Shown here one piece after another: positions 8,991-15,492 of a stretch of 21,117 nucleotides of DNA. The notes beneath the pieces are model-generated. The model saw only the letters and a program-made list of their open reading frames with translations, did not search any database and was not told the origin of the DNA. The DNA lies in the IMG/VR virus record IMGVR_UViG_3300047163_000186, positions 1 to 21,117 of that record; one strand, given 5' to 3'. The translations under genes and the position numbers were made by a program. Positions within the stretch are counted from its first letter, which is position 1. Every line of letters starts with the position of its first letter. The DNA is from a virus.

Positions 8991-9383
8991 CTAAAAGCCG
9001 CCGACGCCACCGGAAACGGATGACGGCGACGGCACCGTCGTCGCGTCTGCGCCCGGCTTCGCGGGCTCGCCGAGGCCGGGCGACTTCGTGCCAGCCGCCT
9101 TCGCGACGGATTTGATTTGGTCGATCATCGTATCGACTTGCGCGCCGAGCGACGGGTAGTGCCCTTTCACTTCGCGCAGCGACATTACGGCGTTGTCGGC
9201 CGCCTCTTTCTTGTCCGTCGACGGATCGCCGGTCGGCATTGCGCCCGCGCCCGTGGGCGGCGGCGGCACGCCCGGCATCTTCGGCGGCGCGCCGAGCCCG
9301 GCGCCGAGCGCGGCGGCCTGCGGCGGCGGGCCGATTGGGGGAGCGCCTCCGGGCGCCGGTTGATTCAGTAGATCGCCGTACAT
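8991..9383 (-). CDS. MYGxLL-family small protein, copy 3 (130 aa)
   Basis: The N-terminus MYGDLLNQPAPGGAPPIGPP matches the start of two other proteins upstream (MYGQLL and MYGELL). The next part is Pro/Gly/Ala rich (to residue about 50). Then comes one helical region, KKEAADNAVMSLREVKGHYP and VDTMIDQIKSVAKAAG, and a low-complexity tail ending GGVGGF. Start ATG 9383 has AGGGAG at correct spacing. It lies directly downstream of the portal gene. No known family; it is a paralogous component of the portal block. Confidence 0.75.
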   Translation of the reverse strand: MYGDLLNQPAPGGAPPIGPPPQAAALGAGLGAPPKMPGVPPPPTGAGAMPTGDPSTDKKEAADNAVMSLREVKGHYPSLGAQVDTMIDQIKSVAKAAGTKSPGLGEPAKPGADATTVPSPSSVSGGVGGF

Positions 9384-11859: not shown

Positions 11860-12225
11860 TTACTCCCGCGCTTTCGCGATTTCTTTGAGGTGCGTGACGT
11901 TCTCTTGCTTCCACTGGTGGTACGGCTGAACGCCCGTGTACGAAGCGCCCTTTTTCAAATCCTCACGGCTGATTTTTCCCGCCGCGTAGTCCGCGGCGAG
12001 CGCCTTCATAAACGCCTCTTGGTGCGCTTCGTACGCGGCGCGATGCGCGGCTTCGTTCGCGGCGACGGCTTCTTCGGACGGCGGCGGCGGCATTGCGCCC
12101 GCTGCTCCGCCGGGTGCGGGCGTCGGCGTTGGCGCAGGCGTGGGCGGCTCAATCGGCTGCGGATAGCCCTTGATCGCGGGCGGGGCGCCGAGCGGGCCTG
12201 CCCCACCGAGTAGTTGGCCGTACAT
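11860..12225 (-). CDS. MYGxLL-family small protein, copy 2 (121 aa)
   Basis: It starts MYGQLLGGAGPLGAPPAIKG, close to the next gene upstream. Residues 20-50 are Pro/Ala/Thr rich, and 50-121 are helical and charged (SEEAVAANEAAHRAAYEAHQ, AGKISREDLKKG, VQPYHQWKQENVTHLKEIAK). Start ATG 12225 overlaps the upstream TAA as TAATG. It shares its N-terminal module with the proteins encoded at 12225-12626 and 8991-9383. No known family. Confidence 0.78.
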   Translation of the reverse strand: MYGQLLGGAGPLGAPPAIKGYPQPIEPPTPAPTPTPAPGGAAGAMPPPPSEEAVAANEAAHRAAYEAHQEAFMKALAADYAAGKISREDLKKGASYTGVQPYHQWKQENVTHLKEIAKARE

Positions 12226-12626
12226 TACGAACCCCCGTTTGCCGGGCCGAATCCCGGAATGCCGCCGCCGGGCGTCACTTTATCAACGTCCGTCCACATC
12301 GAACCCTGCGGCTTTCGCATTGTGCCGGGGTCGGTTGCGCCTGGGATTTTTCCGTAAATCTTAAATAGCGTCTCAAATGCTTTGCTTGCTTCACGGTCTT
12401 GTGGCGTCGGGTCATCGCCGCCTGACGTGAGCATCTTCATGTAGTTGCCATGCTGTTTTTGCGCGTGCTCGAGCGCCGCAAGCGCATCGTTGCGTTGCTT
12501 GTGAAAGTGCATTTGGTCGGCAGACTTCTGTCCAGCCGGTGCCGCAATGATTGGCGCTTGAACGCCTTTAATCGCCGGAGGCGCTCCGAGCGGAGACTCG
12601 TTTGGCGAGAGAAGCTCGCCGTACAT
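12225..12626 (-). CDS. MYGxLL-family small protein, copy 1 (133 aa)
   Basis: It starts MYGELLSPNESPLGAPPAIK, almost the same N-terminal module as the downstream gene. A helical part (MHFHKQRNDALAALEHAQKQ and NYMKML) follows, then a charged stretch DDPTPQDREASKAFETLFKI, and a Gly/Pro-rich end. The ATG at 12626 overlaps the preceding stop (TAATG); although the frame is open further upstream, that region belongs to the FmdB-like gene in another frame. No known family. Confidence 0.78.
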   Translation of the reverse strand: MYGELLSPNESPLGAPPAIKGVQAPIIAAPAGQKSADQMHFHKQRNDALAALEHAQKQHGNYMKMLTSGGDDPTPQDREASKAFETLFKIYGKIPGATDPGTMRKPQGSMWTDVDKVTPGGGIPGFGPANGGS

Positions 12627-13048
12627 TAGCGGCCCACCGAACGATATGCGCCGCCGGAGAGCGGCTCGAGCCCGGCGCGCTTTGCGATTTCGCGAGCGTT
12701 GCGGTTGGTGGCGACTTCGTTGTGCGTGATCGGCCGGTACGCGAGCTTCGGCTTGCCGTCCTCGCGCGTGCCGATGATTGTCTCTACACCTGGCAGGCCC
12801 ATGTTGAAGTCTGCCGTGCCGTCTTGGCGGCGCGCCTCCGATGGCGCCGACTCGCCGCCGCACGACATGCGCATGCCGGGAATCGTCAGCGCCGTAATGA
12901 CCTGCTCGACCGGCGCGAAGCACCGGCGCTTCCGGCCGCCGCGGTAGGCATTGCGTGGCGGAGCCGCTTCGCAAGAAAGCGGCTCGCCGATGCGGCGAAA
13001 TACCTCGTGGGTCCCGTGCTCGGGGCAGCGACAGTCGTAGCGTGGCAC
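12626..13048 (-). CDS. FmdB-like zinc-ribbon protein (140 aa)
   Basis: The N-terminus (from GTG 13048) reads VPRYDCRCPEHGTHEVFRRI, matching the start of the FmdB-type zinc ribbon (PxYxYxCxxCG) with a His in the second position of the first pair. Further cysteines (LSCEA, RRCFAP, MSCGG) may complete it. The remainder contains FNMGLPGVETIIGTREDGKP and a short helical end (NAREIAKRAGLEPLSGGAYR). The GTG has no clear Shine-Dalgarno site; no better start exists without reading past the terL stop. Family resemblance moderate; function, perhaps nucleic-acid or protein binding, is inference. Confidence 0.65.
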   Translation of the reverse strand: MPRYDCRCPEHGTHEVFRRIGEPLSCEAAPPRNAYRGGRKRRCFAPVEQVITALTIPGMRMSCGGESAPSEARRQDGTADFNMGLPGVETIIGTREDGKPKLAYRPITHNEVATNRNAREIAKRAGLEPLSGGAYRSVGR

Positions 13049-13080: not shown

Positions 13081-13098
13081 CCCCCGTAAAATCACGGT
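13081..13098. repeat. 18-base repeat, copy 2 (CCCCCGTAAAATCACGGT)
   Basis: Identical to 8967-8984. On the minus strand its last A coincides with the TAA stop of terL, so it follows that stop directly, much as copy 1 follows the stop of the MYGDLL gene within 7 bases. The two copies bracket the portal block of six genes. A small CCGT/ACGG stem-loop can form. Role unknown; candidates are a processing site, a regulatory element or a recombination remnant. Confidence 0.75.
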
Positions 13099-14891
13099 TA
13101 GTAGTCGTCGCTGCTCCAAAAGAGCCCCTCGTCGAGCGATTCGTCGTCGATGTCGCGCGCTTGCACGCCCGGCGCAATGTAGCGCGTGGGGTCCACGAAC
13201 GGATCGAACGTCGGTAGGTCGGGGTCGTAATACGAATCGACCTCGACCTCCTCGACGTCCGTCTCGCCCGGGATGATCGACGACCGCAAGCGCATCATTG
13301 CGCACAAAATTTGAAACGCCGATACCATGTCGTCGTGCCGCCCGGCGGCGCCGCCATAGGAGCCCGCGTCGCCGAAGTTGTCGAGTTGCCGGTACGTCGA
13401 CATTTCGAGAACGAGGTCTTGGTCCGGCACGTCGATTTTATCATCGTCGATCATGCGCAGCGTTGCGCCAATCATGTACGGTTTCGTTTTCGAATCGCTC
13501 TGCCAGCCGAGGCTCGACGTCGCTTTCATCTTCGTCTTGCCGAACGGTTGCCAACGGTACACGCGGTAGAGGTTCTTGTCGTCGCAGTAGACGCACATGG
13601 CCGAGCCGGGGCCTGTCCATTCCGGCACAAGCTCCGGTGCCGTTACGCTCTCGCCGACTTGGTAGCGCAATCCCCAGCATAGCGCCGCGGCGACTTCGCC
13701 GAACGCAATCGGGTTAATGTGCCCGCGCCACGTCATAATGAGTTCGTCGCGCTCGAGTTCGTTCAGCACGCCGACCATGATGACGGAGTAGTCGCCGTCG
13801 CGCGACTCAGGGTTGCCGCCGCCGACGTCGCACGTCACGATGATTCGCTCGCCGCGCGTCGGCCAGCGATAGACCTTGAGATTGTTGTACGTGTTCTCAT
13901 TGACGTGCGGCTCAAAGCCGAGAGCGCGCGCTTGCCCCTTCGTGTAGAAATGCGGGCGACGCACCAATTCGTGAATCGGCTCCGACTCGTTTTTCGCGTC
14001 GCTGACGCCCCAGTACACGTCGCCCGACCAGATCGGCTCGCGCACGTTCGACATGAGCCGCTTGATCGACTTGCGTCCGAACACGGAGTTGCCGGAGAGT
14101 AAGAACGCCGTCGCAAGATCGGTCGGGTATTCCTGATCGAACATGTCCTCGTCGCGGTTGAACGTCGGACCCGCCAGCATCATGCGCCGCCAGTTCAATT
14201 GCTCGAGCGAAATGTGCGGGAAGCGGCGAAGCAGATCGCGTTCCGTGCCGTTGAGTTGCTTGCCGAATGCGATGCGCTTCTCGTCCGACTCAAACGGAAC
14301 CGCGAAGCTCTGCGTCATCTCGTGCCACGGGATGAACACCAGTCGCATTTCGCCGTATTGCGTATCCTTGCGTGCCTGCGCATCCATGCATTGCTCGTAG
14401 AACCAGCGCCCGCGACCCTCTTGTCCGTTCGGCGTCGACTCGATGTAGAGCGCGGAATGGGCTTCGCTTGAGAGTGTTGGGTAGAGCGAACGGAAAAGCT
14501 CGTGGCCGTCGACGTAACGCGACGCTTCCGTTGCGTGAATGTTTTGGAAGCCGTAGCCGAGGAAGGCGTCGATGGAGCGCGCGGTCGCGACGTAGATGCC
14601 CGAGTCGAGCGGCGGCGCAAACAACAGCCGGTCCTTCGGCGGGTTGTTGTTGTACTCGGGAGGCAGCGGCGGGCGCACCATGATGCGCTGACCGGCAAGC
14701 TCGAAATACTCCGGCGACTCTTTCCAGAATCGCGTGTACATGCCGAGGACGTTTTCCGACGGGTTCTTTTCGTTTGCGACGATTAGCGACTTCGAGTATT
14801 CGTTCGTCGTCGTATCGTCGTAAATGAGCGATGAGACGCCGGTCGACAGACCGGCGCGGCGAGCTTTACAGATAACGATTCGCACGGGCAT
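13098..14891 (-). CDS. terL: Large terminase (TerL), packaging ATPase and nuclease; N-terminus likely truncated by the ATG call
   Basis: The motor subunit that cuts the concatemer and pumps DNA into the head. Residue numbers are from ATG 14891. Walker A-like CKARRAGLST lies at 8-17, acidic Walker-B-like HATE at 119-122, and a coupling-type motif ESTPNG at 151-156. The nuclease half has CDVGGG at about 354 (catalytic Asp), SRDGDYSV at about 363-370 and GRHDDMVSAF near residue 530. Having Walker A only eight residues from the start is abnormal: homologues carry an adenine-binding region before it, and the same frame is open for about 65 more codons upstream (separate entry). The gene follows the duplicated acidic protein and ends next to the 18-base repeat. 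Confidence 0.92.
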   Translation of the reverse strand: MPVRIVICKARRAGLSTGVSSLIYDDTTTNEYSKSLIVANEKNPSENVLGMYTRFWKESPEYFELAGQRIMVRPPLPPEYNNNPPKDRLLFAPPLDSGIYVATARSIDAFLGYGFQNIHATEASRYVDGHELFRSLYPTLSSEAHSALYIESTPNGQEGRGRWFYEQCMDAQARKDTQYGEMRLVFIPWHEMTQSFAVPFESDEKRIAFGKQLNGTERDLLRRFPHISLEQLNWRRMMLAGPTFNRDEDMFDQEYPTDLATAFLLSGNSVFGRKSIKRLMSNVREPIWSGDVYWGVSDAKNESEPIHELVRRPHFYTKGQARALGFEPHVNENTYNNLKVYRWPTRGERIIVTCDVGGGNPESRDGDYSVIMVGVLNELERDELIMTWRGHINPIAFGEVAAALCWGLRYQVGESVTAPELVPEWTGPGSAMCVYCDDKNLYRVYRWQPFGKTKMKATSSLGWQSDSKTKPYMIGATLRMIDDDKIDVPDQDLVLEMSTYRQLDNFGDAGSYGGAAGRHDDMVSAFQILCAMMRLRSSIIPGETDVEEVEVDSYYDPDLPTFDPFVDPTRYIAPGVQARDIDDESLDEGLFWSSDDY

Positions 14892-15094
14892 GCGATGATC
14901 GCGAAACCAGCGGTAGTCGCGATAGAGGCGAAGCTGCGCCTCGTTGTAGCGCAGCGGGATGACTTTCCGGTTTTGCGCAGCGAGAATCTTGAAGCTGTTC
15001 TCGATGCGGAATCGCTCGTCGGTTGCGTAGCGATTAAGAAGCTGCCGGGCGCGCTCGGCGTCAGCAGCTACGTTCGCAGGTTGTCGTTATTCAC
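14892..15094 (-). other. Likely N-terminal coding part of TerL, no in-frame start: frameshift or sequence error candidate
   Basis: In the TerL frame codons continue open from 15086 down to 14892. The predicted residues include RIENSFKILAAQNRKVIPLR, then YNEAQLRLYRDYRWFRDH, which read like a terminase N-terminus before Walker A. No ATG, GTG or TTG occurs in this stretch. A GTG at 15094 overlaps the upstream gene's TAG (TAGTG), as the other couplings do, but it opens a different frame that stops after eight codons (at 15068). A -1 shift or a one-base sequencing error would join them. Confidence 0.6.
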
Positions 15095-15492
15095 TAGTCC
15101 TCGACGTCATCTTCACGGAAGCCGGAAGCCGCGGCATCGGCGACGCGCGCGTACGCGTTCATCTTGTCGACGTTCATCGTGAGCGAGCCCTGCACGTAAT
15201 TCTGTACGCGCTGGATGCATTGCACGTACAAGTCGCGCGACATTTCGTTCAGCAAATCGTCGTTGTACGGCGTGGCCTGGCGCATGCCCGCGGGAATATC
15301 GCTCAGGTCATCTTCGTTCACTTCGTCGAACCCGCACGCCGCGGCGTCGAGTGCTGCCGCAATGGCTTGCAGCATTTCGTCGTCGCAATCCGGGAGCTTG
15401 AGCTTCTCAAGCGCGAACTTGCACGTATCGTAATACACGCTGCGCGAGATGGTGTCGAGTTGGGCGTCGTTATACGAGCGGGCGCTGTTCAT
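15094..15492 (-). CDS. Acidic, internally duplicated small protein (132 aa)
   Basis: Two similar halves of about 60 residues: the first has SYNDAQLDTISRSVYYDT and AIAAALDAAACGFDEVNEDD, the second PYNDDLLNEMSRDLYVQC and AYARVADAAASGFREDDVED. Both share YNDxxL, SRxxY and DAAAxGFxExD. The protein is acidic, with helical segments. Start ATG 15492 lies within the end of the HTH gene (23-base overlap), and its stop TAG overlaps a GTG that would start terL. No family recognised. Confidence 0.75.
   Translation of the reverse strand: MNSARSYNDAQLDTISRSVYYDTCKFALEKLKLPDCDDEMLQAIAAALDAAACGFDEVNEDDLSDIPAGMRQATPYNDDLLNEMSRDLYVQCIQRVQNYVQGSLTMNVDKMNAYARVADAAASGFREDDVED

Follow-up and report, generated by a model that had tools for sequence, protein, structure and literature searches.

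The gene considered here encodes a terminase large subunit (TerL) on the minus strand of IMG/VR virus record IMGVR_UViG_3300047163_000186, of which positions 1-21,117 were analyzed; this whole stretch of 21,117 bases is referred to as the window. The protein matches PHROG 2 (phrog_2, terminase large subunit; E 4.6e-19), and Foldseek comparison of its fold returns T4 gp17 (E 6.9e-17) and the RB49 nuclease domain (E 4.2e-6). Moreover, the A3 profile matches the nuclease chains of gp17. Walker A (KARRAGLS) and an invariant NEAQ approximately 25 residues before it both lie in the TerL frame, and the window TerL carries its upstream adenine-binding segment and Walker A in one frame. By family profile and fold, the window protein is thus a terminase large subunit combining packaging ATPase and nuclease. 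Elsewhere in the window, three small minus-strand genes near the portal gene (8991-9383, 11860-12225, and ~12225-12629) begin alike (MYGDLLNQ..GAPPIG, MYGQLLGG..GAPPAIKG, and MYGELLSP..GAPPAIKG, respectively) and, to judge from this common N-terminal motif, are perhaps paralogues. A search of the window against Rfam yields nothing except a tRNA-Gly.

The TerL frame opens at position 15086, directly 3' of a TAA (Table 1), and a sequence-only reading had stated that it then runs for 65 codons without any ATG, GTG, or TTG, the first such codon being codon 66, ATG 14891. The same reading had noted that a GTG (15094-15092) overlaps the TAG of the upstream gene as TAGTG and reads eight codons to a second TAG in another frame. 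Both descriptions proved correct when the sequence was reread, and the lack of an in-frame start recurs in all 13 sequences described below. TerL occupies the -1 frame of the short open reading frame (ORF) that begins at this GTG, and as the TAA closes the TerL frame upstream, a shift between the two frames must lie 3' of it.

Table 1. Features of the TerL start region and neighbouring positions in the window.
Feature	Position	Strand	Basis or remark
Upstream small gene, 132 aa, partner in the TAGTG overlap	15094..15492	-	ORF list
Short 0-frame ORF, MNNDNLRT-stop (GTG AAT AAC GAC AAC CTG CGA ACG TAG)	15068..15094	-	Proposed TerL translation start
In-frame TAA closing the TerL frame upstream	15087..15089	-	ORF reading
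CGA, proposed -1 shift site	15074..15076	-	Invariant, 13/13
0-frame TAG two codons 3' of CGA, would end unshifted translation	15068..15070	-	9/13
Stem-loop directly 3' of CGA-ACG-T: AGCTGCTG (15069-15062), 14-nt loop, CGGCAGCT (15047-15040)	15040..15069	-	Anchored stem score, covariation
TerL body, -1 frame, 658 codons + stop (AAC GTA GCT ...)	13098..15074	-	PHROG and fold matches
First in-frame ATG, not the TerL start	14889..14891	-	3' of invariant NEAQ; ATG not conserved in relatives
tRNA-Gly (TCC), contig edge	20939-21013	-	Window

A scan of viral contigs with the window TerL alone gave no match, and a query with the portal protein matched two viral contigs; the remaining relatives were found with alignments of TerL, portal, and major head protein. 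The set of TerL genes without a start comprises 13 distinct sequences from many separate metagenome assemblies: the window, L012, L013 (which stands also for L014, L015, L025, and L030), L017, L019, L026, L027, L051, L059, L060, L061, L068, and L069. The 12 further IMG/VR TerLs are mostly 48-68% identical to that of the window, and L059 and L060 are a near-identical pair. Ordinary in-frame starts are found in L016 (GTG), L028 (ATG), L011 (TTG), L020 (ATG), and L043/L075 (GTG), and most of the more distant TerLs (~25% identity) have an in-frame start-like codon near the N-terminus. In a tree, members with the proposed frameshift branch off at all depths of the group, with ordinary starts interspersed in three places; the frameshift is therefore more likely to have been lost several times than gained several times, although many forks of this tree are weak. 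L043 (2698-2760) and L075 contain, besides the GTG of the TerL frame, a short TTG ORF that ends CGA GTT TGA and stands in the -1 relation, an arrangement that possibly represents an intermediate state.

The family shows further peculiarities outside the start region. In-frame insertions of ~300-350 amino acids lie at the same place in three TerLs (L019:2262-3323, after GPPFNRDEDIF; L068:4440-5500; L031:972-1889) and carry LAGLIDADG_3 (E 4e-20, 6.8e-16, and 9.3e-20, respectively); that of L031 also has a sub-threshold intein splicing match. On these profile matches, the three insertions are probable TerL inteins. In L012, an in-frame TAG (2532-2534; CAG AGC TAG CAC) occupies TerL codon 522 in the nuclease domain and the match continues beyond it; error, defect, and suppression are candidate explanations. 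Genes labelled 'tail spike protein' in the Bacteroides phages PQ571263, PQ571269, and PQ571277 (L005, L006) are TerL homologues of this family, and the label is likely a misannotation.

In all 13 sequences, the TerL frame lacks ATG, GTG, and TTG before the conserved N-terminal RLxRFxxDxRFRIEN, and because this recurs in 13 of 13 distinct sequences, window included, the missing start is far beyond chance. The first in-frame codon of this kind falls at codon 27-81; in L012 it is codon 81, beyond Walker A at 71-78, and an internal start there would therefore yield a dead ATPase. When start codons within the seven codons before a conserved CGA are counted by frame, one lies 3-6 codons before the CGA in the frame that needs a -1 shift in 13/13 sequences, in the TerL frame in 0/13, and in the third frame in 1/13. 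TerL is thus, throughout the set, a -1 frame ORF behind a conserved start-bearing ORF, which is short and lies near the stop of the upstream gene. The short ORF ends in a stop in the window (MNNDNLRT*), L013 (MNDNLRT*), L017 (MTKPRT*), L051 (MNSRT*), L061 (MNQPLRT*), L059 and L060 (MISAPRS*), L069 (MTSIARS*), and L068 (MGISSRS*), and is without the TAG in L012 (MAATSLRSKPL..), L019 (MIDVRTKPL..), L027 (MNPALRKQPL.., from TTG), and L026 (MSSGRRQPRP.., from TTG).

The comparison also places the proposed shift, which the sequence-only reading had not located, at CGA 15076-15074 of the window. In 9 of the 13 sequences, the CGA is continued in the 0 frame by A(C/G)N TAG; AAG or CAG replaces the TAG in the other four, in three of which the replaced base still pairs in the stem described below. 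Just 1 nt separates the opening of the TerL frame from the CGA in L051 and L068, so that a shift would have to take place on the codon before the CGA, on the CGA, or on the next codon, and of these three only the CGA is common to all 13. The TerL-frame residue at this position varies (A, S, T, or P) despite the presence of CGA in 13/13; likewise, the TerL codon two places further on has A as its third base in 13/13, whether its residue is V, Q, E, T, A, or L. Thus, it is the bases that are conserved here and not the residues. Under the codon usage of each gene, and with the 13 sequences treated as independent although they are related, the joint chance is ~10^-12 for the 13 A endings and ~10^-4 for the 13 G endings at the CGA codon. 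CGA is rare among the Arg codons of the window TerL (4/45). It is followed by ACN or AGN in 11/13 sequences and by AAG (L027) or CGA in the others. None of the 13 sites examined has a slippery heptamer X_XXY_YYZ, and no consistent -1 re-pairing is available among them, being partly available in L027 (CGA_AAG) only. Transcriptional slippage was rejected, as there is no homopolymer at the site in the window. No second use of the signal emerged from a search for CGAASNTAGC, which has 0-3 occurrences per record, a frequency similar to that of a reversed control.

Downstream of the CGA, the RNA is predicted to fold into a hairpin, the first stem base of which lies 5-8 bases past the C of CGA in 13/13 sequences. 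The summed anchored stem score is 261.5, compared with 170.5 +/- 10.9 (maximum 218 of 2000) in synonymous shuffles that kept the TerL protein and codon usage, and with 119-153 at nine other anchors downstream. With arms registered by hand, because the MAFFT DNA alignment misaligned the 3' arm, 88.5% of stem cells pair and three pairs are changed on both sides; the covariation score is 0.271 compared with 0.156 +/- 0.035, and 0/500 shuffles reach it. The hairpin therefore exceeds synonymous constraint and shows covariation, and its stimulation of a shift is putative. The signal is collective over 13 related sequences and is not significant in single ones, window included (window stem alone against synonymous shuffles, p = 0.20); in L069, L059, and L061, the stems are weaker or differently paired. 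A less specific test, the minimum free energy of a 50-nt window against synonymous shuffles, gives a negative z in 13/13 with individual p of 0.013-0.42, which is suggestive only. No stem excess was found in the ordinary-start relatives.

Several observations indicate that the segment forming the hairpin is itself TerL coding sequence. The CGA-to-RF distance is 44, 47, 50, or 53 nt, differing by multiples of 3 only, and no stop interrupts the TerL frame over this stretch in 13/13. Relatives align from residue 1-12 of the open TerL frame with 43-65% identity, and the residues of the hairpin segment align with the N-termini of the ordinary-start relatives. Moreover, a predicted model places helices at residues 4-31, with a mean pLDDT of about 80-85 for residues 11-40. 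The alignment and the predicted helices agree with the sequence-only description of the 65 upstream codons as terminase-like. Across the hairpin, third-position differences in the TerL frame number 147, as against 104 and 125, a modest signal. Phase, open frame, alignment, predicted helices, and third-position signal together favour a local -1 shift over a bypass like that of T4 gene 60, in which ribosomes would take off near CGA-NNN-UAG, jump the hairpin, and land downstream. Such a bypass would account for the stop codon and hairpin at the take-off site, which resemble gene 60, and a jump of 3n+2 nt would give the same frame change; nevertheless, the coding character of the segment speaks against it, as does the lack, by inspection of the 13 sites, of a shared landing codon matching either the CGA or the codon before the UAG, and it is considered very unlikely.

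The sequence-only reading had left a choice between a one-base error and an unusual -1 frameshift, and only the latter has stood. If one base were missing between GTG 15094 and the TerL frame, through sequencing or assembly error or in a broken gene, restoring it would join both frames to give an in-frame start, and indels in single contigs are a common cause of such patterns. However, the frame relation, the CGA, and the hairpin are repeated in 12 other contigs from separate metagenomes, with TerLs down to ~48% identity, and frame and motifs are under selection. Recurrence in 13 sequences from many separate assemblies refutes an error, which is left with a negligible probability; the same conservation, the hairpin at the site, and the absence of this hairpin from ordinary-start relatives argue for the frameshift. 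Alternatively, ribosomes might initiate directly in the TerL frame, using either an unusual codon close to the site or an ATC, ATT, TTG, or ATG farther downstream. The TerL codon over the UAG is GTA, CTA, or TTA in 9/13 sequences, resembling known start codons, and re-initiation after the short ORF is conceivable. The codon at this position is, however, CAA in L012, GAA in L019, GCA in L027, and ACA in L026; no start-like codon, canonical or otherwise, is shared by the group, that of L012 being the one past Walker A; and neither the restriction of the short-ORF start to one frame nor the invariant CGA would be explained. None of the relatives begins at the equivalent of ATG 14891, and this codon was rejected as the TerL start. 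Initiation in the TerL frame thus appears improbable. A fusion of the upstream gene with TerL by +1 or -1 frameshifting or read-through could be imagined, as the genes abut and the upstream stop lies in the TerL frame in several relatives. The upstream gene is nonetheless +1 relative to TerL in the window and L013, in frame in L012, L017, L026, and L027, and -1 in L019, whereas the short ORF is always -1; because the former relation differs between relatives, TerL is not made as such a fusion, and this explanation has next to no probability.

It is likely, on comparative evidence, that a conserved programmed -1 frameshift near the start is needed to make TerL in this group of uncultured bacterial viruses. 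Ribosomes would start at the codon overlapping or adjoining the stop of the upstream gene (GTG 15094 in the window), read 3-6 codons, shift by -1 at the conserved CGA, and continue in the TerL frame, so that the window product would begin M-N-N-D-N-L-[R or T]-N-V-A-A-D-A-E-R-A-R-Q-L-L-N-R-Y.... Ribosomes that fail to shift would, in most members, stop at the UAG two codons on and release a peptide of 5-8 residues. As slippery heptamer and general re-pairing are both missing, the shift would have to occur without re-pairing. The decoding of CGA relies on a weak I.A wobble in most bacteria. The hairpin, ~four bases after the CGA, may slow delivery of the next tRNA while the CGA is in the A site. 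In particular, if numbering starts with +1 at the first base of the codon preceding the CGA, the stem core, AGC, has its first base at +11, close to the distance of 11-12 nt at which the dnaX and HIV stems hinder the A-site tRNA (PMC7282821), and this position fits a shift with the CGA in the A site.

Two ways of shifting at the CGA can be envisaged. In doublet decoding, a tentative and rather doubtful proposal, tRNAThr(CGU) would read only the CG of CGA, and the A would be re-read as part of AAC or AAG; the -1 frame would be established in the A site during the delay that the hairpin imposes on the cognate tRNAArg. A cryo-EM study of 2025 suggests that doublet decoding requires U36, two G-C pairs, and a purine at the third codon position, and states that it is unknown whether a tRNA with the CGU anticodon doublet-decodes CGA (PMC12202706). 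The matching tRNA, with U36 and G or C at 34 and 35, would here be tRNAThr(CGU). The corresponding sequence features (G or C at positions 1 and 2, a purine at position 3, and no re-pairing) are present at the CGA in 13/13. In the alternative candidate, tRNAArg(ICG) on the CGA would let the next tRNA bind the overlapping AAC or AAG; out-of-frame binding beside a weak wobble has been argued for Ty3, in the +1 direction (PMC5009743, PMC12661321). The models predict different residues at the shift, Thr for doublet decoding and Arg for tRNAArg(ICG). A phage tRNA encoded near the site as the cause of the decoding was rejected, the only ones being tRNA-Gly(TCC) in the window and a tRNA-His in L017.

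Programmed -1 frameshifting on a slippery heptamer with a 3' stem-loop operates in dnaX, in phage tail-assembly genes, and in IS elements. As in those cases, the TerL site is conserved, has a 3' stem-loop, and involves two frames that differ by -1, but it contains no X_XXY_YYZ in any of the 13 sequences and lies 3-6 codons after the start codon; as reading on in the 0 frame would yield no more than a peptide of 5-8 residues in most members, the frameshift product would be the whole functional protein. RF2 (prfB) with its +1 frameshift, and T4 gene 60 and the phage Hau3 terminase with their bypassing, are examples of obligatory recoding. The TerL group resembles them in that the recoding falls near the beginning or in the middle of the gene and an in-frame stop follows the site closely, and the Hau3 gene also encodes a terminase; direction, signal, and distance differ, and the TerL group has neither a non-coding gap nor the matched take-off and landing codons of the gene 60 type.

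Closer in the codon used are the CGA_AAG -1 sites of Bacillus cdd and the IS1222 transposase, cited in PMC5009743, in which CGA, with its weak I.A wobble, is the key codon. CGA is common to both; however, these sites work by A_AAG re-pairing, which is impossible in 11/13 sequences here (ACN or AGN next), and L027 is the sole member that has CGA_AAG exactly and so falls within this class. Doublet decoding yields -1 shifts by tRNASer3 on GCA and tRNAThr3 on CCG/A, presumably at low frequency (PMC12202706); as proposed for the TerL site, the -1 shift involves no re-pairing and the codon combines two G/C bases with a purine in third position, and no conserved use of it in any gene was found in the literature searched. 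The Ty3/OAZ1-type frameshifts likewise proceed without re-pairing, with a weak inosine-wobble tRNA in the P site and out-of-frame binding in the A site (PMC5009743, PMC12661321), and CGA can replace the Ty3 codon (PMC5009743); unlike the TerL shift, they are yeast systems and run in the +1 direction. The TerL signal would thus be a variant of programmed -1 frameshifting whose site lies outside the known re-pairing classes, and no report of such a signal in a terminase gene was found in the open-licence literature.

As shifted ribosomes would make whole TerL and unshifted ones, in most members, a short peptide, the fraction that shifts would set the level of TerL, and a low, fixed level may be the purpose, the protein presumably being needed in few copies. 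If the proposed frameshift is true, these phages express an essential motor gene in no other way than by a shift within a few codons of the start, and the site concerned departs from the rule that -1 shifts require re-pairing; standard gene callers will then miss or truncate the TerL N-terminus in this group. The site would then be a conserved natural test case for CGA doublet decoding or for another -1 shift without re-pairing in bacteria, and were doublet reading to hold, these viruses would owe all of their TerL to a codon read by two bases only.
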